A DNA stretch of 64,000 bases from Thermoanaerobaculia bacterium (GTDB lineage Bacteria; Acidobacteriota; Thermoanaerobaculia; Multivoradales; J023), in the NCBI GenBank assembly GCA_030431255.1, contig JAUIJL010000010.1, positions 124,001 through 188,000 of the forward strand, read 5' to 3'. This document shows, piece after piece, positions 44,273-61,205 of this stretch. Position 1 is the stretch's first letter, and each line of letters starts with the position of its first letter. The notes under the pieces are model-generated. The model did not search any database, was not told where the DNA came from, and worked only from the letters and a program-made list of their open reading frames with translations. The position numbers and the translations under genes were made by a program.

Positions 44273-46576
44273 TTGAAAATCGCCGACACCTCGAGTCGAC
44301 ACTTGGCGGCTGGGGTGGTCACGATGCTCGCTCTGGCAATGGGTGCCGCGGGACCGACCTCCGCTCAGGAACCGGTGCCATTCGACCGACGCGAGGTCTT
44401 TCTCGACTCTGGATTCGTCGAGGGCCGAACGGCTGATTCCGGGCCGAGTGACAGCTCATCGTCGGATGCCGAGGTCGTGTTCTCTCAGGAGCTTTCCGCG
44501 CCCGGTGCCGAATGGCTGCGGCTTTATTTTCACCAAGCGATCTTGGGCACGAACCACCGGGGACGTGCCATCGGGGGACGTGCCATCGGGGGACGTGCCC
44601 GGCTGAGGATCACGTCCTTGGCAGATGGCGCAGTGCAAACGCTCGACGCCGAGACCTTGCGCCACTGGCGGTATTCCAGCGCCTACTTCAACGGCGACAC
44701 GGTCCGCGTCGAGCTGCTCGCCCACCCCGGCTCAGCACCGAGCCGAGTCCGAATCCAAGAGCTCGACGCCGGCCTCCCACTGATCGACGGGTGGGCCAAA
44801 TCCATCTGCGGATCCCTCGACGATCGCACCTTGAGCGACGATGAACGGATTGCCAGGGTGATGCCGGAGGGCTGCACCGCTTGGTTGATCGACGACGCCC
44901 ACGGCTGTTTCCTCTCAGCCGGCCACTGCCACGGCGCTGGATTCGACGTGGTGCAATTCAACGTGCCCCTATCCGAGGAGGACGGCACGGTGACCCACCC
45001 CGGACCCGAGCATCAATATCCCGTCGATCCAGCGTCGATCCAATTTTCCGATCAGGGCATCGGCAACGACTTCCTTTACTTCGGCGCGTTCCCCAACGGC
45101 CAAACCCAGCTCACTCCCCTCGAGGCCCAGGGACGAGCTTTTGCCCTCGGCACCCCACCCATTTCTGCGAGTGATCAGGCCCTGAAGGTCACCGGTTACG
45201 GCAGGGTGGACGGGAGCCAGGGCACGCCCCAGAGCTGGAATCAAGCCCAACACAGCCACGACGGCCCGCTGACCTCGGTATTGCCCGACTCCCTCCAATA
45301 TCGAGTCGACACCACCGGCGGCGATTCGGGCGCGCCGGTGATCGATAGCTTCAGCGGACAAGCCATCGGCATCCACTCCCACGCGGGCTGCACCGAAGAG
45401 GGTGGAGCCAATCACGGCACCTCCATCGTGCAGCCCGCTTTGTGGTCCGCGCTCTCCCAACCCATGGGTATTTGCGCCGGCGGGGCCCCGGAGCTACGGG
45501 TCGAGCTCGCCTCCTCCTTGCCCGTGCTCATCCAACCCACGGGCCTGGAGCTTTCTATTCAAACCCTCGATCGCCAGGGACAACCCGCAGCTGCCACCGC
45601 CGCCACCCTCCTCTATGACCAAGGCGAGGGGGAGATTCCCGTGGCCATGATCCCCGTGGCCATGATCCCCGACGGCCAGCCGGCCGCCGACCACCGGACG
45701 TCGAACGACACGGCCGGCGGGACGACCTTCGTCGGATCCTTGCCCGCCTTGGCTTGTGGCCGTGAGGTGACGTTTCGATTCGAGGTGCAGACCGCGAACG
45801 GCGCCGTCGTCAGGCATCCTTTCTCCGCAGACAACCACGCGGGACGGGTCTACCGGCGCCCCGTGGCCCTTTCCCTCGACGAGACCTTTCGCGACGATTT
45901 CGAAATCGATCTCGGCTGGACCGTGAACGACGATCCGAGCCTGCAGTCGGGCACCTGGGAACGCGGCCGTCCCGCCGGCTACGGCCTCGAAGGCGATCCC
46001 CCCTGGGATGCGGACTCCTCCGGTCGGGCTTTTCTGACCTACAACTCAGGCGGCAACACCGACGTGGACGACGGCGCCACTCGCCTCACCTCACCCACCC
46101 TCGACGCCGCCGGTCCAGATCCACACCTCCACTATTGGCGCTGGTGGGACGATCAAGGATCCAGCGACGACGTCCTGCTCGTCGAGCTGTCCAACGACGA
46201 CGGTAGGTCTTGGATCCCCCTCGAATCCGTGGGACCGGGCCTTTTCGGCCAGTGGATCCAACAGAGCTTTCGCATCGCCGACGTCTTAACCCCCACCGAC
46301 CAGCTCAAAGTCCGCTTCACCGCCGCCGACCTGGGTGAAGGCCACTTGATCGAAGCCGGCGTAGACGGTGTGCGAATCTCCAACGGCCCCACCGGTTTCT
46401 ACTGCGGCGAGCTGTTCAGCGACGGATTCGAAAGCGGCGATGCTCGGGCTTGGTCGTCGGCAGTTCCACAGCTCGACCGATCCATAGCTCAAGGATCCGA
46501 CGCTTTGTCACCGTCCAGCGCCGGCAGGGCGTCCAGTGCATTCAAGGCCTCTTTCGCCTCCCGAGTCTTCCGTTGA
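44273..46576 (+). CDS. Secreted trypsin-like serine protease with a C-terminal DGFESGD tail
   Basis: 767 residues from a TTG at 44273 (GGA 8 nt upstream); no other in-frame start precedes the signal peptide LAAGVVTMLALAMGAAGPTSAQ. The trypsin-fold catalytic triad is visible: H218 in LSAGHCHG, D266 in GIGNDFLYF and S352 in TTGGDSGAPV, with disulfide-forming cysteines around it. A beta domain follows, and then a MAM/lectin-like module (about 530-680: DDFEIDLGWTVNDDPSLQSGTW to VDGVRISNGPTG). CGELFSDGFESGDARAWSSAVP near 700 is a C-terminal motif common in secreted proteins of this group. Thirty-five extra residues follow it and overlap the convergent kinase gene by 88 bp. Confidence 0.82.
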   Translation: MKIADTSSRHLAAGVVTMLALAMGAAGPTSAQEPVPFDRREVFLDSGFVEGRTADSGPSDSSSSDAEVVFSQELSAPGAEWLRLYFHQAILGTNHRGRAIGGRAIGGRARLRITSLADGAVQTLDAETLRHWRYSSAYFNGDTVRVELLAHPGSAPSRVRIQELDAGLPLIDGWAKSICGSLDDRTLSDDERIARVMPEGCTAWLIDDAHGCFLSAGHCHGAGFDVVQFNVPLSEEDGTVTHPGPEHQYPVDPASIQFSDQGIGNDFLYFGAFPNGQTQLTPLEAQGRAFALGTPPISASDQALKVTGYGRVDGSQGTPQSWNQAQHSHDGPLTSVLPDSLQYRVDTTGGDSGAPVIDSFSGQAIGIHSHAGCTEEGGANHGTSIVQPALWSALSQPMGICAGGAPELRVELASSLPVLIQPTGLELSIQTLDRQGQPAAATAATLLYDQGEGEIPVAMIPVAMIPDGQPAADHRTSNDTAGGTTFVGSLPALACGREVTFRFEVQTANGAVVRHPFSADNHAGRVYRRPVALSLDETFRDDFEIDLGWTVNDDPSLQSGTWERGRPAGYGLEGDPPWDADSSGRAFLTYNSGGNTDVDDGATRLTSPTLDAAGPDPHLHYWRWWDDQGSSDDVLLVELSNDDGRSWIPLESVGPGLFGQWIQQSFRIADVLTPTDQLKVRFTAADLGEGHLIEAGVDGVRISNGPTGFYCGELFSDGFESGDARAWSSAVPQLDRSIAQGSDALSPSSAGRASSAFKASFASRVFR
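44559..44599. repeat. 15-bp in-frame tandem duplication
   Basis: GGGGACGTGCCATCG occurs at 44559-44573 and 44574-44588, with an 11-bp partial third unit to 44599. It encodes a G-R-A-I-G repeat in the protease propeptide region. Confidence 0.9.
45637..45666. repeat. 15-bp in-frame tandem duplication
   Basis: CCCGTGGCCATGATC occurs at 45637-45651 and 45652-45666, encoding V-A-M-I-P twice in the beta domain that follows the protease. Confidence 0.92.
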
Positions 46577-48630
46577 TCCGCACTCCGTAGACTGAGGCGG
46601 ATCTCGTAGGCGGCCTGCAAGTGGACGCGCGCGCTTTGGAGATCACCGCGATCCCGAGCGATCAGCCCGAGGTAGTAGTCGACGCTCGACATTTTCCATA
46701 GATCGGGCTCTTCCGACCGACGCCAGCGCTCCGAGGCCAGCTCCAGCTCGCCGTGGGCGTCTTCGAGCCGACCGGCCGCGTACAAGCCCGCGGCCAGGTT
46801 CTTGTGGGCGTTGGCGATGGTGGCGTGATCGCCGGGATCGAGCTGAATCTTGGCGTTTAGAGCCTTGCGGAAGAAGGCGATGGCGGAGTCGTTTCGCCCG
46901 AAGGATTTTTCAATGCTCGCGAGATTGCTGAGGGCGGACGCCAGCACATTCAGATGCTCGTCGCTCGATGTCCGTCGCAGGATGCTCTCGGCTTGTTGGA
47001 GGTATCCGCTCGCTTCCTCGTTTCGTCCCAGATGGAGCAAGGCCACCCCCAAATTGTTGGCGGCCAAGGCGACTTCGGGATGATCGGTCGGCAAATGTTT
47101 CTGACGAAGGTCCAAGCATTCTCGTAAACGCGGCTCAGCGTCGGCGGCTCGGCCCATCTGCCGCAAAGTCTGACCGGCGGCCCCCTGAAACGCCGCTCTG
47201 AGCAGCGGCTGGCCTTCGAAGGTCTCCTCTCGATCCAACAGCTCGACGATGTGGTCTAGCAGCTCGAGGGCGGCGGCGTTTCCGCTCCTATTCAAGGCCG
47301 CGGGCTCCAACAATGCCATCACGAACTTTCCCATTTCTCGGGACGTGTCCGCCACCTGCCTCCCCTGCTCCAGTCGCATTTGAGCCTGGGCCTGCGCCAA
47401 GCGACGATCCGACCGCTCGAGCCACCAGCCGGCCACCAACGCCACCGCGACCGCCGCCGCCAGGGTGCCTCGCCAGTGGCGCGCCAACCATTTTTGGACC
47501 CGGTAAGACCAGCCACCGCGGGCTTCGAGGGGCAGACCATCGAGATAATTCTGGAGATCCCGTTGCAGAGCTTCGACCGAGGAATACCGCCGGCTCGGGT
47601 CCGGGTCGAGGGCTTTGAGCACCAGGCTGTCCAAATCTCCGGTCAGCTGTCGGCGCAATCGACCCCGATCCGCCTGCTCTCCGCGCACTACCCGCGAGCT
47701 CGGGCGGGTCGGTGGTGAGGATTGGGAGCGCCCGGACATGGGGTCTTCGACGCCGCCGAACGGGCTGCTGCCGGTGAGCAGCTCGTAAAGCACCACCCCC
47801 AAAGAATAGACGTCCGAGGCGGTGGTCACCGCTCCGCCGGTCAATTGCTCGGGGCTGGCGTATTCCGGGGTGAGAGGCACCAACAGTCGGGTCGAGGGGG
47901 TCTTGCCGACCTCGCTGAGGTCCTTGGCCACCCCGAAATCCAGCAGCTTCGGGACCCCTTCTTGGGTGACGAAAATGTTGCCCGGTTTGAGATCCCGGTG
48001 GATGACCAGGTGACGGTGGGCGTGGGCGACTGCTTCCGCCACCCGGATCATCAACCCCAGGCGCTCGCGCAAGGAGAGCCCGCGCCGGGCGCAGTAGAGG
48101 TCGATCGGCTCCCCATCCACCAGCTCCATGACGAAGTAGGGACGGCCGTCTTCGAGGGAGCCGGCGTCGAGCAGACGGGCGATATTCGGGTGTCGGAGCT
48201 CCGCCATCAGGCGACGCTCCGACAAGAACCGATCCCGCAGCTCCGAAGGCCCACCGGCCAATCGAATGACCTTCACCGCCACCCGCTCCTCGTAGGTGTC
48301 GTCGGCCCGCTCCGCCAAGTAGACGTCTCCCATGCCCCCCGCGCCGATCGGCGACAAGATGCGGAAGGCACCCACCCGGTCCCCCTCATCTAAGGGACCG
48401 CCGCCGACCTCCGGCAACACGGCTTGGTTGAGGAAGCCGTCCGTGTCCGGAGCGTGGCCGAGAAGCTGCAGAGCCTCTTTCAGCAGCAGCTCGTCGCCCT
48501 CGCACTGCTCGACGAGGAAGGCCCGCCGCTCGGGCTCCGGAAGCGCCTGGGCATCGCCCACCAAGTCCTTGAGGCGTTGCCAATCGGGCGCCGCCTGCGA
48601 CGACTGAGAGGCCGACGACGAAGGGATCAC
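46489..48630 (-). CDS. Membrane Ser/Thr protein kinase with C-terminal TPR domain
   Basis: 713 residues from a GTG overlapping the previous stop (GTGA). Residues 15-75 (DWQRLKDLVGDAQALPEPERRAF...GFLNQAVLPEV) are the small N-terminal domain found in this kinase group. The Hanks kinase follows: IGAGGMGDVY (95-104), catalytic Lys K120, HRDLKPGN (211-218), DFG (231-233) and YASPEQL (257-263). A membrane helix lies near 390-405 (LAAAVAVALVAGWWL), and the outside part is TPR repeats that match many tetratricopeptide units. Kinases of this type are usually encoded next to ECF sigma factors or anti-sigma genes. It is translationally coupled to the sigma-like membrane protein upstream, which is its probable partner or substrate. 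Confidence 0.92.
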   Translation of the reverse strand: MIPSSSASQSSQAAPDWQRLKDLVGDAQALPEPERRAFLVEQCEGDELLLKEALQLLGHAPDTDGFLNQAVLPEVGGGPLDEGDRVGAFRILSPIGAGGMGDVYLAERADDTYEERVAVKVIRLAGGPSELRDRFLSERRLMAELRHPNIARLLDAGSLEDGRPYFVMELVDGEPIDLYCARRGLSLRERLGLMIRVAEAVAHAHRHLVIHRDLKPGNIFVTQEGVPKLLDFGVAKDLSEVGKTPSTRLLVPLTPEYASPEQLTGGAVTTASDVYSLGVVLYELLTGSSPFGGVEDPMSGRSQSSPPTRPSSRVVRGEQADRGRLRRQLTGDLDSLVLKALDPDPSRRYSSVEALQRDLQNYLDGLPLEARGGWSYRVQKWLARHWRGTLAAAVAVALVAGWWLERSDRRLAQAQAQMRLEQGRQVADTSREMGKFVMALLEPAALNRSGNAAALELLDHIVELLDREETFEGQPLLRAAFQGAAGQTLRQMGRAADAEPRLRECLDLRQKHLPTDHPEVALAANNLGVALLHLGRNEEASGYLQQAESILRRTSSDEHLNVLASALSNLASIEKSFGRNDSAIAFFRKALNAKIQLDPGDHATIANAHKNLAAGLYAAGRLEDAHGELELASERWRRSEEPDLWKMSSVDYYLGLIARDRGDLQSARVHLQAAYEIRLSLRSADQRKTREAKEALNALDALPALDGDKASDP

Positions 48631-51290: not shown

Positions 51291-51667
51291 GGCTAAAGCT
51301 CCCCTAACAATTACAAGTCTCATCCCCCCAACGACTTAACCACCCCATACGGCCAAGCTCCCCCCCCCACGCGAACGCTGCTCGGACGCAATTTCGAACC
51401 CATCTTCGAAAATTCTTGAAATCTATTTTGAAAAACCGTCCAATCCGCCGTTTTTGATCCGTTAGCAAGAAGCGAAACCCAGAAGACACCTCCGTTGAGG
51501 AGGTAACTTCCTGAACTCGCGCGATTTAGGAGCCAACACTCAATCTCGGAACGCCGTCCGCGGCGGTCCCTGACCGCGAGCCCCGCGCTCGCCCTGGAAG
51601 AGCTGCGCACCGAAAACCGGTTTCGGTGGCGCGGCTCCGGGCGAGGCGGGCTCTCCGGAGATCGAAG
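51291..51667. other. Divergent intergenic region with hairpins
   Basis: 377 bp between the sigma-like gene (minus) and the repeat protein (plus). ACCTCC (51488-51493) and GGAGGT (51499-51504) form a perfect hairpin with the loop GTTGA, which could hide a ribosome-like GGAGG. ACCGAAA (51609-51615) and TTTCGGT (51621-51627) form a second stem. No sigma-54 consensus and no GAAATGTC box were found here. A long minus-strand frame crosses the region but is a shadow of the repeat protein gene. Confidence 0.5.
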
Positions 51668-52870
51668 ATGACTCATGAATCGTTCCGCTCGAAGTCCGCG
51701 CTCTTGTCGGTTTCCTTGCCCACAGCTTTGGTTTCGCTCCTGTGTCTTCTCTACCTGATCTATTCGCCGCCGGCCGCTTCTGCGATCCACCCTTGCGACG
51801 AGGCGTGGTCCTTGGACCTGCCGGCCTCTGAACGCGGGGTCACCCATGAAGGCGTTGCGGCGTTCAGCGTGGAGGCTGCCGCTTCTCGCTGGCTGGTGGT
51901 CGAGGCTCAACGGATCGACACCGTCGACCACCGTGCCGCTGAACGGCCCGAGGTCCGACTTTTCGACCACGCATGCCGCGAGCTGCAACCGCATCCAACC
52001 CTGCCGCGTCTGTTGGGACGTGCCGTGCACTTCGTTCGGCAATCCGGACCGATCTACATCCAGCTCGAAACCGACGAGCCTCGAGCGGGCTTCTTGATCG
52101 ATGCCTGGCTCGGCTCCGGACGCAACGAGCTCAGCTTCGACCCGTGGTCGAAAACCGACGATCCCGATCCCGTGCCCCAAGAGCCCGTCGACGAATGGGA
52201 TGAGCTGCGATCCGACGTCGCCAAGAACGACGATCCCGATCCCGTGCCCCAAGAGCCCGTCGACGAATGGGATGAGCTTTGGACCGGCGTCGCCAAGAAC
52301 GACGATCCCGATCCTGTGCCCCAAGAGCCCGTCGACGAATGGGATGATCTGACCAGCGGCTCGGAATGCCGGACCGCGCTGACCAAGAACGACGATCCCG
52401 ATCCCGTGCCCCAAGAGCCCGTCGATGAATGGGACGAGCTGCGGACGGAGGACATCGAGCGCTGTCGCATCGATGCACGATCTCAGGCCCGGGAGATCCC
52501 CGGTCTCGGCATCCTGGCCTCGACCCGCGACGGCCTCGAGCTGCGCTCCTTGTGCGCCTGGGCCGGGCATCCCAACCTGCTCGGGACCCTGACTTGCGCC
52601 CGACCCCTTCGTCTCGCGGACACGGGTCAAGTCGAGGTCACCTCGATCCTCTTCGACCGCCCGGAGATCCTGGCGATCGAGCTCGATCGACATTCCGTGC
52701 TGTCGGTGATCGGCGCCGAGCGTCCAAGTCTGCTCGATAGCGAGGGTCACGGAATCCCGGCCGAGCAAGAGGCTATTTGGGAAATTCCGAGCGGTCGCTA
52801 CTTCTTGCAAGCTCACCCCGGCGGCTCCCAATTCTCCGTGTCGATCCGAGCGGGTTCCCGTCGGCATTAG
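51668..52870 (+). CDS. Secreted protein with four acidic DDPDPVPQEPVDEWDEL repeats
   Basis: 400 residues from the ATG at 51668, which follows GGAG by 8 nt and starts a signal peptide (LLSVSLPTALVSLLCLLYLIYSPPAASA); an upstream in-frame start adds only basic residues. Residues 48-150 form a beta domain with ASRWLVVEAQRIDTVDHR. Four acidic proline-rich repeats, DDPDPVPQEPVDEWDEL, follow at about 163-258, then a second beta domain. A protein at 58174 has the same plan, a signal peptide, a beta domain and acidic repeats (DNEDEEQEVDPNEGGFT). Its neighbours are a kinase, sigma-like and ECF genes, so it may be the secreted output or sensor of that system. Acidic repeats could bind calcium or a surface polymer. 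Confidence 0.78.
   Translation: MTHESFRSKSALLSVSLPTALVSLLCLLYLIYSPPAASAIHPCDEAWSLDLPASERGVTHEGVAAFSVEAAASRWLVVEAQRIDTVDHRAAERPEVRLFDHACRELQPHPTLPRLLGRAVHFVRQSGPIYIQLETDEPRAGFLIDAWLGSGRNELSFDPWSKTDDPDPVPQEPVDEWDELRSDVAKNDDPDPVPQEPVDEWDELWTGVAKNDDPDPVPQEPVDEWDDLTSGSECRTALTKNDDPDPVPQEPVDEWDELRTEDIERCRIDARSQAREIPGLGILASTRDGLELRSLCAWAGHPNLLGTLTCARPLRLADTGQVEVTSILFDRPEILAIELDRHSVLSVIGAERPSLLDSEGHGIPAEQEAIWEIPSGRYFLQAHPGGSQFSVSIRAGSRRH
52157..52440. repeat. Four 50-bp coding repeats in the secreted protein
   Basis: Near-identical 50-bp cores start at 52157, 52229, 52301 and 52391 and each end in GATGAGCT or a one- or two-base variant. The periods are 72, 72 and 90 bp. Inter-repeat linkers are much less conserved than the cores, which suggests duplication with later gene conversion or selection on the core peptide. 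Confidence 0.95.
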
Positions 52871-52889: not shown

Positions 52890-52926
52890 GGCTCATTGAG
52901 ATCGCTTTTCGCGATTTCAATGAGCC
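52890..52926. terminator. Strong hairpin after the repeat protein gene
   Basis: GGCTCATTGA (52890-52899) and TCAATGAGCC (52917-52926) are perfect 10-bp arms, with GATCGC / GCGATT extending the stem inside. The tetraloop is TTTT. A second CTTTTCGCGATTT follows at about 52928. Position and strength suggest termination or 3' protection; there is no long T-tract. Confidence 0.7.
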
Positions 52927-52993
52927 ACTTTTCGCGATTTCGCCGCGTTTCTTGATTGTCACCGCGCTTGAGCCGACGCAAGGAGAATTCGAC

Positions 52994-53218
52994 GTGGCCG
53001 TTTCGCGAAATCCGCCCGAGCCGACAGAAAGATGGCAACGCTGCAAACAGATTGTTTGCAGTATGCTCACCCAGGATCGAGAAACTTGGCCGACCCTGCT
53101 GGTCAAAGAATGTGGTGACGATGTAGAGCTCTTTCTCGACGCGGCTTGTTTGATTCGGCTCAGCCTGAGAGTCGGAGACTTCATTGAAGAGCCGGCCCTG
53201 AGGAAGGTTCTGCCATGA
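52994..53218 (+). CDS. Stand-alone kinase-N-terminal-domain protein coupled to an ECF sigma factor
   Basis: 74 residues from a GTG at 52994, chosen because AGGAGA (52981-52986) lies 7 nt upstream; a TTG 42 bp earlier lacks a site. The sequence PTERWQRCKQIVCSMLTQ...LLVKECGDDVELFLDAA...GDFIEEPALRKVLP aligns with the first 65-75 residues of both kinases in this locus (shared W-Q-x2-K, L-x2-C/L-x2-D, and F-x-(D/E)-x-P/L spacing). It has no kinase domain. Its stop overlaps the ECF sigma gene start by 4 nt (ATGA), so the two are co-translated. It may act as an adaptor that competes with, or presents, a kinase N-terminus to the sigma factor. Confidence 0.65.
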   Translation: MAVSRNPPEPTERWQRCKQIVCSMLTQDRETWPTLLVKECGDDVELFLDAACLIRLSLRVGDFIEEPALRKVLP

Positions 53219-53859
53219 GCTCTATGTTCCATCCTTCGGGGGTCGGCAAAACCGGTGAGACCATGACCGCTGCCCTGCCCGAAGAATTGACCGCTCTCCT
53301 GCTCGCTTGGAGCGATGGTGACCCCGAGGCCCTGCAGGAGCTCATGCCCCTGGTCAGCAACGACTTGCGGGTCATGGCCCGGCGATACCTCGCACGGGAA
53401 GGGGATCGCCATATTTTGCAGCCCACGGCATTGGTCAACGAGTTCTTCCTCAAGGTCAATGATCGCCGGAGTGTTCAGTGGGAGAACCGCGCCCACTTCT
53501 TCGGCTTCGCCGCCCAGACCATGCGACTGATCTTGGTCGATTTCGCCCGACATCAGAAAAGAGCCAAACGCGGCGGTGGCGAAAATCCGATGATGCTCGG
53601 CCCGGAGCTCGACGATCTGGCGGGCGCCGACCAACCTTCTCGAGTGGAAATTCTCGCCCTTCATCAAGCCCTCGATCGATTGGAGGCCCAGGATCCACGC
53701 ATGGCCTCGGTGGTCAAGCTCCGCTACTTCGTCGGTATGACCGTCCAGGAAACAGCCGCCGCCCTCGACCTCTCACCCGCCACGGTCAAGCGCGAGTGGC
53801 AATTCGCCCGCCTATGGCTGTTCCGGGAGCTCAACGGCGACGGCGATCCGCCCAACTGA
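53215..53859 (+). CDS. ECF-type RNA polymerase sigma factor (TIGR02999-like group), first copy
   Basis: 214 residues from the ATG at 53215, after AGGAAGG at 7 nt. Regions 2 and 4 are recognisable: DPEALQELMPLVSNDLRVMARRYLAREGDRHILQPTALVNEFFLKV, the group-typical FFGFAAQTMRLILVDFARHQKRAKRGGG, and a region-4 helix-turn-helix DLSPATVKREWQFARLWLFREL. This sigma group of Acidobacteriota and Planctomycetota usually lies beside TPR-tailed Ser/Thr kinases, as here. Its N-terminal extension of about 20 residues precedes the usual start of the family. It follows a stand-alone kinase-N-domain gene with a 4-nt overlap. Confidence 0.9.
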   Translation: MSSMFHPSGVGKTGETMTAALPEELTALLLAWSDGDPEALQELMPLVSNDLRVMARRYLAREGDRHILQPTALVNEFFLKVNDRRSVQWENRAHFFGFAAQTMRLILVDFARHQKRAKRGGGENPMMLGPELDDLAGADQPSRVEILALHQALDRLEAQDPRMASVVKLRYFVGMTVQETAAALDLSPATVKREWQFARLWLFRELNGDGDPPN

Positions 53860-54856: not shown

Positions 54857-55429
54857 ATGGATCAACCCCCGAGCGAGGTCACCCGACTCCTGGATGCGTG
54901 GAGTGAAGGCGACCAGGGGGCCCTGCCCAAGCTGATGCCGTTGATCGTCGAGGATTTGCGCCGGCTGGCGCGCAAATATATGGCGGTCGAGAACCCGGGC
55001 CATACTCTCCAGCCCACCGCTTTGGTCAACGAGCTGTTCTTGAAGCTGTTGGGCAAACGCAGCGTCAGCTGGCACAACCGCGCGCAATTCTTCGCCTTCG
55101 TGGCCAATATGATGCGTCGGCTGCTGGTGGATCATGCCCGGATCAAACAAGCCGCCAAACGGGGCGGCCGACAGGTGGTGCTCTCCCTCGACGAGACGAT
55201 TCGCGTTCCCGAGTCGCAAAAAGATCCGGAGCTCTTGGCCTTGGACCAGGCTCTTCACCAGCTCGCCCAGCTCGATTCCAGGCAAGCGAGGATCGTGGAG
55301 ATGCGTTATTTCACGGGCCTCTCCATCCAGGAGGTGGCTGAGGTAGAAGGCATCTCCCGGACCACGGTCAAGCGGGAGTGGCGCACCGCCCGGATGTGGT
55401 TGATGAAGGAAATCGAAAGTCTCAAGTGA
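54857..55429 (+). CDS. ECF-type RNA polymerase sigma factor (TIGR02999-like group), second copy
   Basis: 190 residues. TRLLDAWSEGDQGALPKLMPLIVEDLRRLARKYMA, HTLQPTALVNELFLKLLGKRSVSW and FFAFVANMMRRLLVDHARIKQAAKRGGR are the group-typical region 2; the helix-turn-helix is EGISRTTVKREWRTARMWLMKEI. It is clearly homologous to the ECF at 53215. The next gene, 126 nt downstream on the same strand, is a kinase whose N-terminal domain resembles the small protein at 52994, so it is probably a kinase-sigma pair. ATG after AGGA. Confidence 0.92.
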   Translation: MDQPPSEVTRLLDAWSEGDQGALPKLMPLIVEDLRRLARKYMAVENPGHTLQPTALVNELFLKLLGKRSVSWHNRAQFFAFVANMMRRLLVDHARIKQAAKRGGRQVVLSLDETIRVPESQKDPELLALDQALHQLAQLDSRQARIVEMRYFTGLSIQEVAEVEGISRTTVKREWRTARMWLMKEIESLK

Positions 55430-55555: not shown

Positions 55556-58132
55556 ATGGACGCCGAAAGATGGCAAGTGATCAAGGGCTTTCTCGATCGC
55601 CTTGCGGAGTTGCCGCGCTCAGAACGGTCGGAGCTGCTAAAGGATCTTCGCGAACGCGACCCACAGCTCAACCAAGAAGTCCTCTCCTACCTGCCCTACG
55701 GAGAGACCGCTGAGAGCTTCATCGACGAGCCCCTCTGGCAATTGCTCACACAAACCTCCGGAGCGCCGACCCGAGCCCCGTCTCCCCTCCTCGGTTCCAC
55801 CCCCAAACCTTCATCGAAAAGCGGCGAAACGACCGACCTTCGCATTGGTCCTTACCGGCTGAAGGAGCTGCTCGGCCGAGGGGGCATGGGAAAAGTGCAC
55901 CTTGCCGTGAGGGAGGACGACTACGAGCAAAAAGTCGCGATCAAGCAAACCATCGGCCCTCTTCTGAGCGATGAGATGGAGGCCCGATTCGCCAACGAGC
56001 GCCAAATTCTAGCCAACCTTCAGCACCCCGACATCGCCAGGCTGCTCGACGGCGGCACGGATTCGGACGGCATGCCCTATTTGGTGATGGAATTCGTCGA
56101 AGGCGAGCCGATCAACGAATATTGTGAAAACCATCAACTCGATCTCCGGCAACGGCTGAGACTTTTCCGCAAGGTCTGCAAAGCCGTGCACTTCGCCCAT
56201 CAACGGCTGGTGGTTCACCGCGATCTCAAAGCCGGAAATATTCTCGTCACTGCCGACGGTCGGCCCAAGCTGCTGGACTTCGGCATCGCCAAGCTGCTCC
56301 AAGAGTCCGCCGATTCCGATCTCACCTCGGAAGGCCGGGTGCCGTTGACCCTCTCTTGCGCCAGCCCCGAGCAATTGATGGGCGAGCCCATTTCCACCGC
56401 CGCCGACGTCTACGCCCTGGGATTGCTGCTCTACGAGCTATTGGCCGGCGTCAAGGCCTACGACCTCGACGACCTCGATTACAGCTCGCTCGTGCGCAGC
56501 ATCTGTCTACAGGAGCCGCCGAAACCCAGCGTTGCCGCGGGATCCAAGCCTGGAGACCACCGGCGATTCTCCAACACCACAGGCACCGAAAGCACCGATC
56601 CGCAGCACCGACCCAGTGCCGTGGATCCCTCGGCGGGCGAGCTCTCTGAAGCGCCGAGACCAGACGCCGCCACCCTAAAAGCTCGGCGACGCCGGAGCCG
56701 CCGGCTGAAAGGCGATCTGGACGCCATCGTCATGAAGGCGATCCGCAAGGAGCCACGCCACCGTTACGAATCCGCCGCCGACCTGGCCGACGATGTTCTG
56801 AGCTACCTGCAAGGGCTTCCGGTCCAGGCTCGAAAAGGAAATTGGCTCTACCACACGGGCAAACACCTGAAACGGAATCGTCCCGCGTTGGTGGTGCTGC
56901 TTCTGATCGCCGGCCTGGCAGTGACCTCCACGGTCATGTGGCAGCTCGCGGAACGGCGGGAGGCCGATGCCTTGGCCGCGAATGCCGAGACGGAAGCCAT
57001 GAACAGGTTCCTCACCGAGATGCTCAAATCCGCCGACCCCGACCGCTCCAAAGGCGAGGAGCTGACGGTGAAGGAAGTGCTGATGGCGAGCCAGGACCGC
57101 ATTGCCGCCAATCTCGGCGAATTCCCCGATCACCAAATCGACATGTACGACGTCTTTGCCCAAGTCTTCTACTCCCTCCGAGCCTACGACCAATCTCTGG
57201 CCATGCGCCAACGGGCCCTCGAAGAGCTGAGGCGCAGATTTCCGGAGGAAAGCGACCATATGGCCACCAAGATCGCCAACGTGGGAGCCGCACATTACGC
57301 GCTAAAAGACTACCGAGCTGCCGAGAGATTTTTCAGGGAAGCCGTCGCCATGCGCGAGAAGCTGGGTCTTGCGCGTTCCGAGTCCACGAGCACGATCAGG
57401 AATCTGGCCAGCTGCCACCTCAAGCTCGGCCGATATGAGAAGGCCAGAAAGGGATTTGAAGAGGTTCTCGAAATCCGCCTCAACGACCCGGAATCGGATC
57501 CCCCGAAACTAGGCTCCGCGTATCACGGCCTCGGCACCTTCCTGAATACCATCGGCGACTATCCCGCAGCGATCGAGAATTTGAGCCGAGCCCTCACCCT
57601 GCGCCTCGAAACCGAAGGCAGCCTGCATTCCAATACCGCTTCGACTTTGTCGGCATTGGGAAGCGCCCATCTCGGCAACGGAGACCCGAAACGAGCCCTG
57701 GTGCTTTTGCGCAGGGCCCTGGCGGCTCGCGAGCAGCTCTTCGGACCGACTGCGGGCCCCGTGGGCTTCAGCCACCGGCTCTTGGCGGAGGCGAATCTCG
57801 GTCTCGGATCCGTCGAATCGGCCGATCGCCACGCGGACACGGCCCTCGAAATCCTTCGCTCCATTCACTCGACCACATCCTGGGAAGTGATCCACGCTGA
57901 GATTGTCAAAGGCAAGTGCTTGACCCGTCTGGGCAGAGTCTCAGAGGCCGAAGCTCAGTTGTTGACCGCCCTGGAAAAGCTGCATGGTCAAGAGCATCCT
58001 CTTCGCCTCCATTTGACCCTAGCCTTCAGCGCGTTGGTCGACCTCTATGAAGCGGCCGATCTCGACGAAAAAGCCCGGTTGTACCGGGCAGAGCTGGCAA
58101 CTTATAGCCTGAGCACCGAATCGGCTCCCTAG
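55556..58132 (+). CDS. Membrane Ser/Thr protein kinase with C-terminal TPR domain
   Basis: 858 residues from the ATG at 55556 (AGGAGATCCT immediately upstream). Residues 3-65 are the same small N-terminal domain (DAERWQVIKGFLDRLAELPRSERSELLKD...). The kinase has GRGGMGKVH (107-115), catalytic K130, HRDLKAGN (221-228, Ala in place of Pro), DFG (241-243) and CASPEQL. A membrane helix lies near 443-465 (ALVVLLLIAGLAVTSTVMW), and the rest is TPR-like and probably outside. It is in the same arrangement as the kinase at 46489. Pairing with the ECF at 54857 suggests it controls that sigma factor by phosphorylation. Confidence 0.92.
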   Translation: MDAERWQVIKGFLDRLAELPRSERSELLKDLRERDPQLNQEVLSYLPYGETAESFIDEPLWQLLTQTSGAPTRAPSPLLGSTPKPSSKSGETTDLRIGPYRLKELLGRGGMGKVHLAVREDDYEQKVAIKQTIGPLLSDEMEARFANERQILANLQHPDIARLLDGGTDSDGMPYLVMEFVEGEPINEYCENHQLDLRQRLRLFRKVCKAVHFAHQRLVVHRDLKAGNILVTADGRPKLLDFGIAKLLQESADSDLTSEGRVPLTLSCASPEQLMGEPISTAADVYALGLLLYELLAGVKAYDLDDLDYSSLVRSICLQEPPKPSVAAGSKPGDHRRFSNTTGTESTDPQHRPSAVDPSAGELSEAPRPDAATLKARRRRSRRLKGDLDAIVMKAIRKEPRHRYESAADLADDVLSYLQGLPVQARKGNWLYHTGKHLKRNRPALVVLLLIAGLAVTSTVMWQLAERREADALAANAETEAMNRFLTEMLKSADPDRSKGEELTVKEVLMASQDRIAANLGEFPDHQIDMYDVFAQVFYSLRAYDQSLAMRQRALEELRRRFPEESDHMATKIANVGAAHYALKDYRAAERFFREAVAMREKLGLARSESTSTIRNLASCHLKLGRYEKARKGFEEVLEIRLNDPESDPPKLGSAYHGLGTFLNTIGDYPAAIENLSRALTLRLETEGSLHSNTASTLSALGSAHLGNGDPKRALVLLRRALAAREQLFGPTAGPVGFSHRLLAEANLGLGSVESADRHADTALEILRSIHSTTSWEVIHAEIVKGKCLTRLGRVSEAEAQLLTALEKLHGQEHPLRLHLTLAFSALVDLYEAADLDEKARLYRAELATYSLSTESAP

Positions 58133-58173: not shown

Positions 58174-59163
58174 TCAAGGAGCGGACAAGAGCTCGATCCA
58201 CTGCCGAGCCAGGGCCCGCCGATCCGCCGGAGCATCGCACGAGTCGCCTGACCAGTGGACCGTCAGGATCAGGTGCTCACCGTCAGTCTCGCTATCGATG
58301 GTGAAACCGCCCTCGTTCGGATCCACTTCCTGCTCCTCGTCCTCGTTGTCCAGCGAAGCGTTGGAGCTCACCGGTTTTGTGCCCGTGAAACCACCCTCGT
58401 TCGGATCCACTTCCTGCTCCTCGTCCTCGTTGTCGAGATTCGAAGGCGAGGTCCCGTTCCAAATGCGCACGTCGGACCTCAGCAGGTAGCTCGGGTCGGC
58501 CGGTCGATGCTCGAGGCTCGGATGGATGCCCGTACCGATCTCGGCTCGCAAAGTCGCTCGACCGTCGAATGCATCCGCCTCAAAGCTCATCAGCTGACCC
58601 AGGTGCCGCCCTTGGCCCCCCGGCGGCCCAGCCCTGAGGCCACGGGATGCCCACCGGCTTCCGCCCGTTTGCTCGACGGAGTAGAGGTCCACTCCGTGCA
58701 CGAAGAAGCCTCGATCGGCGTGCCACACGCGGAATTGGAACGGCACCGCTGCCACTTCAATCCAGCGCATTTGAACCGACATCCCCTTACCGTCGACCCG
58801 TAGGCCATAGACTCCGGCCTCGGTGAAGGCCAACACCCGGCGGTTCGACGAGGTTTCAACAACCCGCCCTCCCCACCCGGAGCCACAACCATCCAGCTCG
58901 GCCGTGAGCTCACCTTTCGAAGACTCGATCACCAGCACGGAGGGGCTCGTCACCTCTAACAAGAGCCGGGTCGGTCCCGCGTCGCCGGCCCATTGCAAGC
59001 CTTGAGGAGAGGTCAGCCAATGGGCAGCTCCACAATCCATCGCCGCTTGCGAAGGGGCTACCCACGCGGCGACCATCATAGCTGCGAGCCAACACGAAAG
59101 CATGACGGATGAGCTGGGGCCGAACGACGAACGAATGTTTTTCGAAACCATTTGATGAAACAT
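58174..59163 (-). CDS. Secreted protein with two acidic DNEDEEQEVDPNEGGFT repeats, likely sigma-54 controlled
   Basis: 329 residues from the ATG at 59163, after AAGGGAG. The signal peptide is SSSVMLSCWLAAMMVAAWVAPSQAA. The body has cysteines (DCGAAHW, LDGCGSGWGG) and beta segments up to about 230; two acidic repeats, DNEDEEQEVDPNEGGFT, follow at about 243-288, then a short C-terminal region. The plan resembles the protein at 51668. The gene lies on the minus strand with a perfect sigma-54 promoter about 150 bp upstream and a sigma-54 activator gene divergent from it. That makes it the best-supported target of the local activator. Confidence 0.78.
   Translation of the reverse strand: MFHQMVSKNIRSSFGPSSSVMLSCWLAAMMVAAWVAPSQAAMDCGAAHWLTSPQGLQWAGDAGPTRLLLEVTSPSVLVIESSKGELTAELDGCGSGWGGRVVETSSNRRVLAFTEAGVYGLRVDGKGMSVQMRWIEVAAVPFQFRVWHADRGFFVHGVDLYSVEQTGGSRWASRGLRAGPPGGQGRHLGQLMSFEADAFDGRATLRAEIGTGIHPSLEHRPADPSYLLRSDVRIWNGTSPSNLDNEDEEQEVDPNEGGFTGTKPVSSNASLDNEDEEQEVDPNEGGFTIDSETDGEHLILTVHWSGDSCDAPADRRALARQWIELLSAP
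58301..58434. repeat. Two 50-bp coding repeats in the second secreted protein
   Basis: The 50-bp units at 58301-58350 and 58385-58434 differ at one position (by eye). Both encode the minus-strand peptide DNEDEEQEVDPNEGGFT. The unit length equals that of the repeats at 52157-52440, though the sequences differ. Confidence 0.95.
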
Positions 59164-59305
59164 GGTGCTCCCTTTCCAGTTCTCGAATTGGGCGCACGAA
59201 TCCCGTCAGCACCACAAGTTGCTTTTTTTCAGTTGCTTAGGAAGTAATCCCAAGCCCTAAATTTCTCGGGTTGTGCGCGCTTTTCTTTACGCAAACACCC
59301 ATAAT

Positions 59306-59321
59306 TGCAACCGACGTGCCA
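59306..59321 (-). promoter_or_regulatory. Sigma-54 (RpoN) promoter, perfect consensus match
   Basis: On the minus strand the sequence TGGCACGTCGGTTGCA (59321 down to 59306) matches the TGGCACG-N4-TTGCW consensus at all specified positions. Transcription would start near 59295 and run into the secreted repeat protein gene (start 59163), giving a leader of about 130 nt. Sequence match only; no transcript evidence. Confidence 0.8.
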
Positions 59322-59359
59322 GGATTTGATAGAGATTTCAGATCATTTTTAAGGTTTCT

Positions 59360-59433
59360 GAAATGTCGGGGCTCGACATAGAAATGTCCGACATTTCAAA
59401 ACGGGCTCAAGAAATGTCGGAGCTTCGAATGTC
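59360..59433. promoter_or_regulatory. Candidate enhancer: GAAATGTC boxes with a 17-bp palindrome
   Basis: GAAATGTC occurs in direct orientation at 59360-59367, 59381-59388 and 59411-59418. At 59381-59397 it pairs with GACATTTC around a central C to form a perfect 17-bp palindrome. Partial sites occur at 59375 (GACATA) and 59427 (GAATGTC). The array is about 65-140 bp upstream of the predicted sigma-54 start and between the promoter and the activator gene, the usual position for an activator-binding site. Confidence 0.7.
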
Positions 59434-59534
59434 GAGAAATAGGAGAGGAGCCAGTGGGTCTTGGACATCTCGGCACCGGCGACCGGAGCCCATAGAGCCA
59501 CGACTCCGAATCCCAGGGCTGGTAAGATAGCGGC

Positions 59535-61205
59535 GTGCGCAGGCTCCCTACGTCGCCAGAAGACGACTCGACCTACCTAGGCCATCTCGACTCGGTCACT
59601 CGATCTGCCACCCACACCGTGGATCGAGCGGATATCCGACTACCTGGGCTGACCGTGTTGTGCCATCCAGATCTGCGTCGAGTGGGAGAGCGGGCGTTGC
59701 TTCCGGCCTTGGCCTCCGATCAGGAAGCCCACCTCTCTCGGCTCGAGCCCCTTTTCTCACAGCCCGGCAGCGCCGAGCGAAGACCCCTTGCGGACCCTCG
59801 CCTCAGCCGTAGCGCCCTGCTCCTGCGTCCCACGGGCGGCGGTGGCGTCCAGCTCGTCAATCCGAGCGGTCGCATTCGGATTTCCGTCGACGGCGCGCCC
59901 GTTCACGACCAGATCGACATTTCCCGTGAGCGCATCGAGACCGGTGTGATCTGGTTGATCTCCAATCAGGTCCTGCTGGCCCTCCATCTGATGGAGCCTT
60001 TGAGTCGTGACGAGCCGAGCTTCGGTTTGGTGGGCGAAGGGCTCGGCACTCAACAGATTCGCCGTCAGATCTCGAGTGTGGCGGACCTCGATGTGCCTTG
60101 CCTGATCCGTGGTGAAACCGGCACCGGCAAGGAGTTGGTGGCACTAGCCATACACAAGGCGTCCGCCCGTGCCGAGCGCCCCTTCGAGGCCCTCAACATG
60201 GGTGCCATTCCCCCGACGTTGGCCGCTTCCGAGCTTTTCGGCGCCCTGAAAGGAGCTTTTACCGGCGCCGACCGCAAACGATCGGGCGCGTTTTCCCGCG
60301 CCGACGGTGGCACCTTATTTCTGGACGAGATTGGCGAGACCCCCCCGGAAGTTCAAGTCCTGCTGCTGCGGGCCTTGGAAACCCATCGGATCCGTCCCGT
60401 GGGTGGAGATCGAGAAATACCCGTCTCGGTCCGGATCCTCGCCGCCACCGACGCGGACCTGGAAGGGGCCATCGCCGACGGCCGATTTCGGGAGCCCCTG
60501 GTCCACCGACTGAGCGGTTACGAAATACACCTCCCCCCCTTGCGCCACCGGCTAGAGGACTTCGGTCGCCTCTTGGTGCACTTCCTGGGATTGGAGCTGG
60601 ACAGCGTCGGGGAGAGCGGCCGACTCAAGGGGAGAGGTCGAAGACCGTGGCTGCCCGCATCGCTGGTGGCCAAGCTGGCCGCCTATTCCTGGCCGGGCAA
60701 TATTCGCCAGTTGCGCAACATCGTCCGACAATTGGTGATCGCCAATCGGGGTCGAGAACAGCTCGAATTGACACCGGACTTGGAATCCAAGCTGACGTCG
60801 GATGCCGCTTCAAGTCCAGCCCAGCCAACGGCTACCCAGCCGCCCCGGGAGCCCTTCGCCGCGCACCCACAGCCTCCCGTCGCCACGAATCCCACAGCCG
60901 CCGAGGGCGCTGATCGACCGACCTATCGAAATCCCGACGAAATCGACGAGCAAGAGCTGCTGCAAGCCCTAAAGGCCAACGCGTTCAAGCTCCAACCCAC
61001 CGCGGCGACCCTGGGCATTTCCCGAACCTCCCTCTACGCCCTGATCGAAAAGTCCACACGCCTGCGCAAGGCCAAAGACCTCACCCAACAAGAAATCCTA
61101 GACGCAAAAAACCGCCACGGCGCCGATTTAGACGCCATGGCGGCAGAGCTGGAAGTCTCACGCAAGGGCTTGCGCCGACAGATGACCCGCTTGGGCTTCG
61201 ACTAG
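59535..61205 (+). CDS. FHA-domain sigma-54-dependent transcriptional activator
   Basis: 556 residues from a GTG at 59535. The N-terminus carries LTVLCHPDLRRVGERALL and an FHA-like beta domain (about 88-152: DPRLSRSALLLRPTGG, NPSGRIRISVDGAPV, VIWLISNQVLLALH), a phosphothreonine-binding fold. The AAA+ sigma-54 activation domain follows: Walker A GETGTGKE (193-200), GAFTGA (240-245), which contacts sigma-54, and Walker B GGTLFLDEIG (258-267). A Fis-like helix-turn-helix, PTAATLGISRTSLYALI, lies near 493-510, and a second DNA-binding-like helix pair is at the end. FHA-type activators are commonly controlled by Ser/Thr kinases in Myxococcota. Here two such kinases are close by. Confidence 0.9.
   Translation: MRRLPTSPEDDSTYLGHLDSVTRSATHTVDRADIRLPGLTVLCHPDLRRVGERALLPALASDQEAHLSRLEPLFSQPGSAERRPLADPRLSRSALLLRPTGGGGVQLVNPSGRIRISVDGAPVHDQIDISRERIETGVIWLISNQVLLALHLMEPLSRDEPSFGLVGEGLGTQQIRRQISSVADLDVPCLIRGETGTGKELVALAIHKASARAERPFEALNMGAIPPTLAASELFGALKGAFTGADRKRSGAFSRADGGTLFLDEIGETPPEVQVLLLRALETHRIRPVGGDREIPVSVRILAATDADLEGAIADGRFREPLVHRLSGYEIHLPPLRHRLEDFGRLLVHFLGLELDSVGESGRLKGRGRRPWLPASLVAKLAAYSWPGNIRQLRNIVRQLVIANRGREQLELTPDLESKLTSDAASSPAQPTATQPPREPFAAHPQPPVATNPTAAEGADRPTYRNPDEIDEQELLQALKANAFKLQPTAATLGISRTSLYALIEKSTRLRKAKDLTQQEILDAKNRHGADLDAMAAELEVSRKGLRRQMTRLGFD

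Follow-up and report, generated by a model that had tools for sequence, protein, structure and literature searches.

The closest described relatives of the circuit presented here are the FHA-type sigma-54 enhancer-binding proteins of Myxococcus xanthus, reportedly described by Jelsbak, Givskov and Kaiser in 2005. These proteins, like the activator in our window (the whole stretch of 64,000 nucleotides analysed here), combine an FHA-like N-terminus, an AAA+ domain with the GAFTGA motif and a helix-turn-helix (HTH), occur as several paralogues and have a proposed link to Ser/Thr kinases. Unlike them, the window activator has an FHA part that is too diverged for Pfam and has not kept the SRxH histidine, and apparently has a second HTH-like segment. 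A kinase near the activator (38 of 49 loci) and a sigma-54 site reading away from it (14 of 58) are further differences.

A second comparison is offered by the kinases linked to ECF sigma factors. PknS of Xanthomonas citri, with one membrane stretch and a periplasmic TPR part, phosphorylates its ECF factor EcfK (PMC13147305), and PknS-EcfK and PknT-EcfP of Vibrio parahaemolyticus are ECF43 systems in which the ECF factor is encoded adjoining the kinase (PMC13147305, PMC8999054; accessible text in both cases). PK55, a kinase of the window, resembles PknS in having a kinase domain, a single membrane stretch and a TPR part beyond it. At the sigma2.2 position, as judged by eye, where the accessible text gives QTTA for ECF43, both window ECF factors have QPTA, the threonine being common to both; the window factors are PF07638 proteins, likened to ECF43 by this motif. 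Unlike the PknS and PknT systems, for which the accessible text (PMC13147305, PMC8999054) mentions no acidic-repeat protein, the window encodes such a protein.

Sigma-54 itself was proposed in 2011 as a controller of the bacterial exterior (PMC3162934). Our genome resembles this theme, as far as the accessible text sets it out: seven of its 11 exact sigma-54 sites precede an open reading frame (ORF) with a signal-peptide-like start, as judged by eye. Neither "FHA" nor "Acidobacteri" is mentioned in the accessible text of that paper or of a comparative sigma-54 study of 2025 (PMC12316311). A literature search covering mainly freely accessible papers found nothing on sigma-54 together with Acidobacteria and the FHA domain, and no description of the arrangement of the window circuit.

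In the window, a sigma-54 promoter and a box array very probably let the neighbouring activator switch on SEC58, an exported-looking acidic-repeat protein (Table 1). The region 59306-59468 is likely to be the control region of SEC58, used by sigma-54 and by the divergent activator through the box array.

Table 1. Features of the locus and its surroundings, in window coordinates.
Feature	Position	Strand	Remarks
PK46, Ser/Thr kinase with TPR	46489..48630	minus	
REG48, 898 residues	48627..51323	minus	one membrane stretch
ECF-type promoter-like CCAATCCGCCGTTTTTGATCCGTTA	51440..51464	plus	upstream of SEC51
SEC51, second exported-looking acidic-repeat protein	51626..52870	plus	DDPDPVPQEPVDEWD x4, 52157-52435
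ECF sigma factor	53215..53859	plus	PF07638, LQPTALVNE
ECF sigma factor	54857..55429	plus	PF07638, LQPTALVNE
PK55, Ser/Thr kinase	55556..58132	plus	membrane stretch residues 444-462, C-terminal TPR domain beyond
SEC58, exported-looking protein	58174..59163	minus	acidic repeats LDNEDEEQEVDPNEGGFT at 58384-58437, 58300-58353
Sigma-54 -24/-12 promoter TGGCACGTCGGTTGCA	59306..59321	minus	predicted start point about 59295
GAAATGTC box 1	59360..59367	plus	
Seven ATGTC/GACAT cores	59363..59468		59363, 59375, 59384, 59390, 59414, 59429, 59464; candidate activator sites
17-bp palindrome GAAATGTCCGACATTTC, boxes 2 and 3	59381..59397		once in genome
GAAATGTC box 4	59411..59418	plus	
Sigma-54 activator	59535..61205	plus	FHA-like N-terminus (divergent), AAA+, GAFTGA 60252-60269, Fis-type HTH

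The promoter TGGCACGTCGGTTGCA consists of TGGCACG, N4 and TTGCA, with 0 mismatches to TGGCACG-N4-TTGCW and with GG and GC at the fixed spacing. An earlier note on this DNA had claimed a perfect match on the minus strand, and a pattern scan bore this out, finding no other exact match in the window. Placing the GC at -13/-12 puts the predicted start near 59295 by arithmetic, in agreement with the start claimed in that note, and leaves a leader of 132 nt to the ATG at 59163. The promoter lies in the 371-bp gap between the divergent genes of SEC58 and the activator and reads away from the latter; neither a sigma-70-type promoter-like site nor a terminator-like site was found at 59100-59600. The 10.19-Mb genome holds 11 exact sigma-54 sites versus 2 for the reversed pattern used as control, and one match to rpoN (PF04552, E 5.9e-67). 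The weaker matches in the window carry no meaning, because 11 sites with up to two mismatches were found versus 9.33 expected.

The three direct boxes and the 17-bp palindrome reported earlier were recovered as well. GAAATGTC stands on the plus strand at 59360, 59381 and 59411 and on the minus strand at 59390, and the copies at 59381 and 59390 together make up the palindrome GAAATGTCCGACATTTC, whose next best counterparts in the genome differ by 2 mismatches. In the 212 bp from the promoter to the activator start, the four copies of GAAATGTC, both strands counted, compare with a shuffle mean of 0.016, and the seven ATGTC/GACAT cores with a shuffle mean of 0.39 and a maximum of 4 (0 of 2000 shuffles reached seven). 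Four of the seven cores sit inside full GAAATGTC half-sites. The boxes are located at about -65 to -123 relative to the predicted SEC58 start, which is a usual spacing for sigma-54 enhancers. A genome search for further promoters preceded by the boxes, as the earlier note had proposed, came back empty: GAAATGTC in either orientation was absent within 400 nt upstream of all 10 other exact sigma-54 sites. We therefore regard GAAATGTC as specific to the window locus, and a genome-wide GAAATGTC regulon was ruled out on this result and on the single occurrence of the palindrome.

The gene divergent from SEC58 encodes a GAFTGA activator, as the earlier note had read it. Pfam identified PF00158, the lid and HTH_8, with Walker A and GAFTGA in place, and the C-terminal HTH scored 28.8 bits against PF02954 (cut-off 22). 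Beyond this Fis-type HTH, 16 aligned members keep an LxVSxxxL segment (LEVSRKGLRRQMTRLGF in the window), which to the eye looks like a second C-terminal HTH. The N-terminus follows the pattern LTVLxHPDxxRVGE...LSR...PLADxRLSRxP...VDG...GVVLLL...RIVLLLH, and the claim that it is of FHA type stood only in part. The Pfam FHA models did not match the window activator, and FHA was absent among the matches listed (25 of 36 families) for the 16 alignment members. When 13 N-termini were made into a profile and searched against PDB sequences at E<=10, the sole match was 3gqs_A (E 0.0044, 51 positions over the SRxH-like core), which we take to be an FHA domain structure. R69, S91 and R92 are invariant in the 16 sequences and the SRxH histidine is replaced, with positions assigned by eye. 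This weak profile match suggests that the N-terminus may be a divergent FHA-like domain. A single-sequence AlphaFold2 model of the activator reached a pLDDT of 38.5 and was not taken into fold searches. The genome itself has 45 Pfam FHA matches, the position of the activator not included, and many of them, judged from coordinates, fall within other sigma-54 activators; the subfamily of the window activator is therefore placed on a separate branch.

This subfamily is large in its own genome, with 17 full-length or nearly full-length paralogues at 40-51% identity; 71 matches were found there in all, counting the activator itself and two second pieces. No match to the activator in 58 other genomes exceeds 54% identity, and SEC58 had 0 matches in 97 others, so a clear orthologue of either was not found there. 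One protein in the gammaproteobacterium Parahaliea mediterranea (L132) matches activator residues 35-550 at 35% identity, and by this similarity the subfamily may extend beyond the class of the host.

In 58 subfamily loci drawn from the own and related genomes, 14 sigma-54 sites with up to one mismatch point away from the activator and 2 point towards it, the own genome supplying six of the 14. The reversed-pattern control, run on 49 loci, gave 0 sites reading away and 1 reading towards. The other nine loci had no called activator ORF and were added by hand coordinates; they contributed 0 sites reading away and one reading towards. In 38 of 49 loci the activator has a Ser/Thr kinase gene at a distance of at most four called genes. 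By informal comparison, this proximity exceeds what spacing alone gives, the own genome having 159 kinase matches in 10.19 Mb, or about one per 64 kb.

Box arrays are less regular. They were significant at 4 of the 14 activator-divergent sigma-54 loci and, by the same script, at 4 of the 44 other loci, and a box array as a general mark of divergent activator loci was accordingly rejected. The boxes vary with the locus: CTCGAC at L100 and L130, ACGTCG at L111 and ATGTCG in the window. These four loci were significant and the other ten were not; neither L213/L123 nor L098 showed a significant array. L047, L100, L110 and L130 share one target family and the promoter TGGTACGNNGYTTGCT. The 160 nt upstream contain 4, 9, 3 and 7 copies of TCGAC/GTCGA, respectively. 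In the 6-mer test, 0 of 500 shuffles equalled the 7 copies of L100 and 1 of 500 the 5 copies of L130, the repeated 6-mers of both lying about one helical turn apart, and L047 and L110 were not significant. The target family itself (L047:8060-8704, L100, L110:9078-9698, L130:7035-7661) consists of small proteins of about 210 residues with TGGTACG-type sigma-54 sites and TCGAC boxes upstream of their genes; they have the motif xxFRxELGINLxAAPVPQTNPNMRIFPLQNAL, and the member tested had no Pfam match. A separate exact sigma-54 site (L011 / L048:12560), 2.1 kb from an activator paralogue, has five GACAT in the roughly 91 nt upstream, two of them as GACATT.

Two loci in other genera allow a closer comparison. 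L213 and L123, which are the same locus, belong to another genus of the same family and contain an ECF factor, a kinase, an exported acidic-repeat gene, a sigma-54 site and an activator, with the order of the window mirrored. The sigma-54 site has one mismatch and is divergent from the activator, and the acidic-repeat gene is convergent with the kinase. Its repeats TKEGDEIDPVLL, four copies of which the last two are altered, have no sequence relation to those of SEC58. No box array was detected: the top 6-mer occurs twice, and 495 of 500 shuffles were as good. The earlier note had held that boxes and promoter missing from orthologous loci would speak against its circuit; at this locus the promoter recurs, with the one mismatch, and the boxes are absent. 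In L212, from another genus and overlapping with L119, an exact sigma-54 site stands beside a gene of the acidic-repeat family described below, 6.7 kb from a subfamily activator. Directly upstream of this site is an array of GACAY boxes, 8 with both strands counted (mean 1.59, reached by 0 of 1000 shuffles). The site is on the strand opposite to the acidic-repeat gene and reads to a divergent gene. This downstream gene (L212:9041-12649) encodes an exported-looking protein of 1166 residues, whose C-terminus presumably resembles a CHAT protease.

SEC58 has two copies of its 18-residue repeat LDNEDEEQEVDPNEGGFT, in which 8 of 18 residues are acidic. It led to a family of acidic-repeat proteins (ARPs), defined in the present analysis, whose members turned up in the surroundings of activators and of PK55 relatives and, after that, in a search with the member L225. 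A typical ARP is exported and has 2-5 acidic repeats between beta-type domains; gene starts were picked by a rough signal-peptide score. The L225 search gave matches in 28 of 98 genomes; in 10 of the 28 the only match was an open frame of at least 886 residues, which was left out, as were two shorter places. In its own genome it hit two places, neither of which is SEC58 or SEC51. SEC58 and SEC51 are 18% and 21% identical, respectively, to the first sequence of the ARP alignment and match the L119/L212 protein with E 2.9e-5 and 9.5e-5 (BLAST with filters and composition adjustment off), so that they appear to be distant ARP relatives at best. We place SEC58 with the family because, besides showing this weak match, it has acidic repeats and a predicted export signal, and because its gene lies antiparallel to a PK55-type kinase.

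By script, acidic repeats were present in 18 of 27 ARP loci and in none of the other 9, and were thus no longer taken as an invariable feature of the family. In 20 of the 27 loci a kinase lies close by, always on the opposite strand (20 of 20, TPR kinases). Seven of the 27 loci were reached from the window, from the activator or from the kinase; of the 20 found by sequence alone, 13 have a kinase within four genes, on the opposite strand in 13 of 13. The PPC domain PF04151 stayed below its cut-off of 25.9 bits with L225 (23.7) and L284 (17.0), and four other ARP members and SEC58 did not match it in Pfam. NCBIfam had nothing above cut-off in L225, L237, SEC58 or SEC51. The idea that ARPs generally accompany ECF loci was rejected: a scan of 40 of the 60 strong ECF matches (>100 bits) in the genome, the two of the window not among them, found an exported acidic-repeat ORF at only 2, under a strict filter that may miss diverged ARPs. 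Twenty-seven control loci gave 2 such ORFs, different proteins in one locus. One ORF of the ECF scan was an already-known ARP and the other, with a DDSEDD repeat, was L329. This exported-looking protein (L329:5481-6011) has DDSEDDYEDD repeats and its gene adjoins an ECF gene.

The upstream regions of ARP genes fall into different promoter classes. The motif CCA-N15..18-CGTTA, a layout typical of ECF promoters, was found on the strand of the gene in 11 of 28 regions, SEC51 included, and on the opposite strand in 0; the shuffle mean of 0.35 overstates the evidence, as the motif was chosen after viewing the same sequences. The SEC58 upstream region does not contain it. A sigma-54 site on the strand of the gene within 500 nt upstream was found for four of 27 ARP genes (SEC58, L213, L225 and L237) and not for the other 23. 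The two sets of regions, 11 and four, do not overlap, and thirteen regions have neither. With a background of 0.0165 sites per kb and strand at one mismatch, about 0.3 chance sites were expected versus 3 found, the window's own included; at up to two mismatches the chance expectation is about 1. The sigma-54 signal across ARPs is modest. Other acidic-repeat genes, among which the earlier note had suggested looking for the promoter, do exist, but with only 4 of 27 having a site on their own strand and about 1 expected by chance, sigma-54 as a general control of ARPs was rejected. Because the set is small and chance gives about 1, only the window and L213, both with an adjacent activator, are strong cases. 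SEC58 may be an ECF-type ARP gene that was moved under sigma-54. Between SEC51 and the ECF gene at 53215, the window also contains four TCGCGAAA/TTTCGCGA matches at 52907-53010 (52907, 52930, 53001 and 53003), of which the last two overlap to form a single palindrome; this is possibly another operator array.

The kinases and ECF factors complete the locus. PK55 has the active-site motifs HRDLK and DFG, and the ECF factor encoded at 54857 is its probable partner. In both window ECF factors LQPTALVNE replaces the acidic sigma2.2 motif, by position as judged by eye. PK46 showed no membrane stretch at the threshold used; its residues 388-404, a hydrophobic run of 17, may form a short one. REG48 had no match in Pfam or NCBIfam, and its relatives adjoin 7 of 27 ARP genes.

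These results bear on three other explanations of the region. The promoter could be real and the GAAATGTC array the operator of another dimeric regulator, or serve the activator's own gene, with another of the dozens of activators in the genome opening the promoter. With 71 activator matches there, it cannot be taken for granted which activator is the cognate one; the palindrome resembles a dimer operator, and the genes flanking the array diverge. However, the boxes are upstream of a sigma-54 site at enhancer distance, boxes of the GACA type also precede the exact site in L212, significant arrays occur upstream of the divergent promoter in three other subfamily loci, and 59100-59600 has no sigma-70-type promoter-like site; we consider this explanation rather unlikely.

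It is improbable that SEC58 answers chiefly to the adjoining ECF/kinase pair, as other ARP genes would, and that its sigma-54 site is minor or a relic. SEC58 is convergent with the ECF-linked kinase and 11 of 28 ARP upstream regions have CCA-N15..18-CGTTA, but SEC58 is without that motif while its sigma-54 site is exact. Coincidence of promoter match and boxes, to which the reversed control lends some ground (about 2 exact matches expected genome-wide), seems highly improbable for a site that reads away from a GAFTGA activator in a 371-bp gap and for an array reached by 0 of 2000 shuffles.

The preferred reading, control of SEC58 by sigma-54 and the divergent activator, would work as follows. 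RNA polymerase with sigma-54 would sit on 59306-59321 in a closed state until the activator acts. The activator encoded from 59535 would use its C-terminal HTH to bind the ATGTC array at 59360-59468, would oligomerise and would open the promoter through its GAFTGA loop, and SEC58 would be made for export with its acidic repeats. A Ser/Thr kinase would pass the signal on through the activator's divergent FHA-like domain, and the likeliest such kinase is the neighbouring membrane kinase PK55. We infer such kinase control of the activator, and PK55 is plausible as the signal source. Of the circuit put forward in the earlier note, the promoter, the array and the divergent GAFTGA activator held up, and the recurrence of the divergent arrangement, the one syntenic locus and the rpoN match support it; its FHA part stands without a Pfam match.

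A further reading, which we regard as tentative and doubtful, is that ARPs are exported ligands of the neighbouring kinases, with the repeats read as linear motifs by the TPR domain across the membrane, and that SEC58 has moved to sigma-54 and an FHA-like activator while SEC51 is still on an ECF-type promoter. Repeat motifs of ARPs include DDEIEIDPDPF, EEVDPNPGAF, EDGEILPL and DEWDEL. EEVD is a TPR-binding motif, and tryptophan-acidic determinants are read by kinesin light chains; binding of the repeats by the TPR domain is suggested by this likeness of EEVD and DEWDEL to TPR-binding motifs, together with the gene pairing and the predicted export and topology. We put the ligand reading lower because the ARP family search misses SEC58 and SEC51. 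If it is true, a second pathway would set the ligand supply to PK55.

The window locus offers a compact candidate sigma-54 circuit that lends itself to experiment, and it opened the way to a family of exported proteins, most of them with acidic repeats, whose tested members have no Pfam or NCBIfam match above cut-off. Since SEC58 and SEC51 stand in different promoter classes within one window, the two can be compared directly. How the periplasmic region of PknS activates this kinase was left to later work in the accessible text of PMC13147305. As to what ECF-linked receptor kinases sense by their periplasmic TPR parts, the ARP family offers concrete candidates: its genes are antiparallel to those of the kinases, and its repeats resemble motifs.
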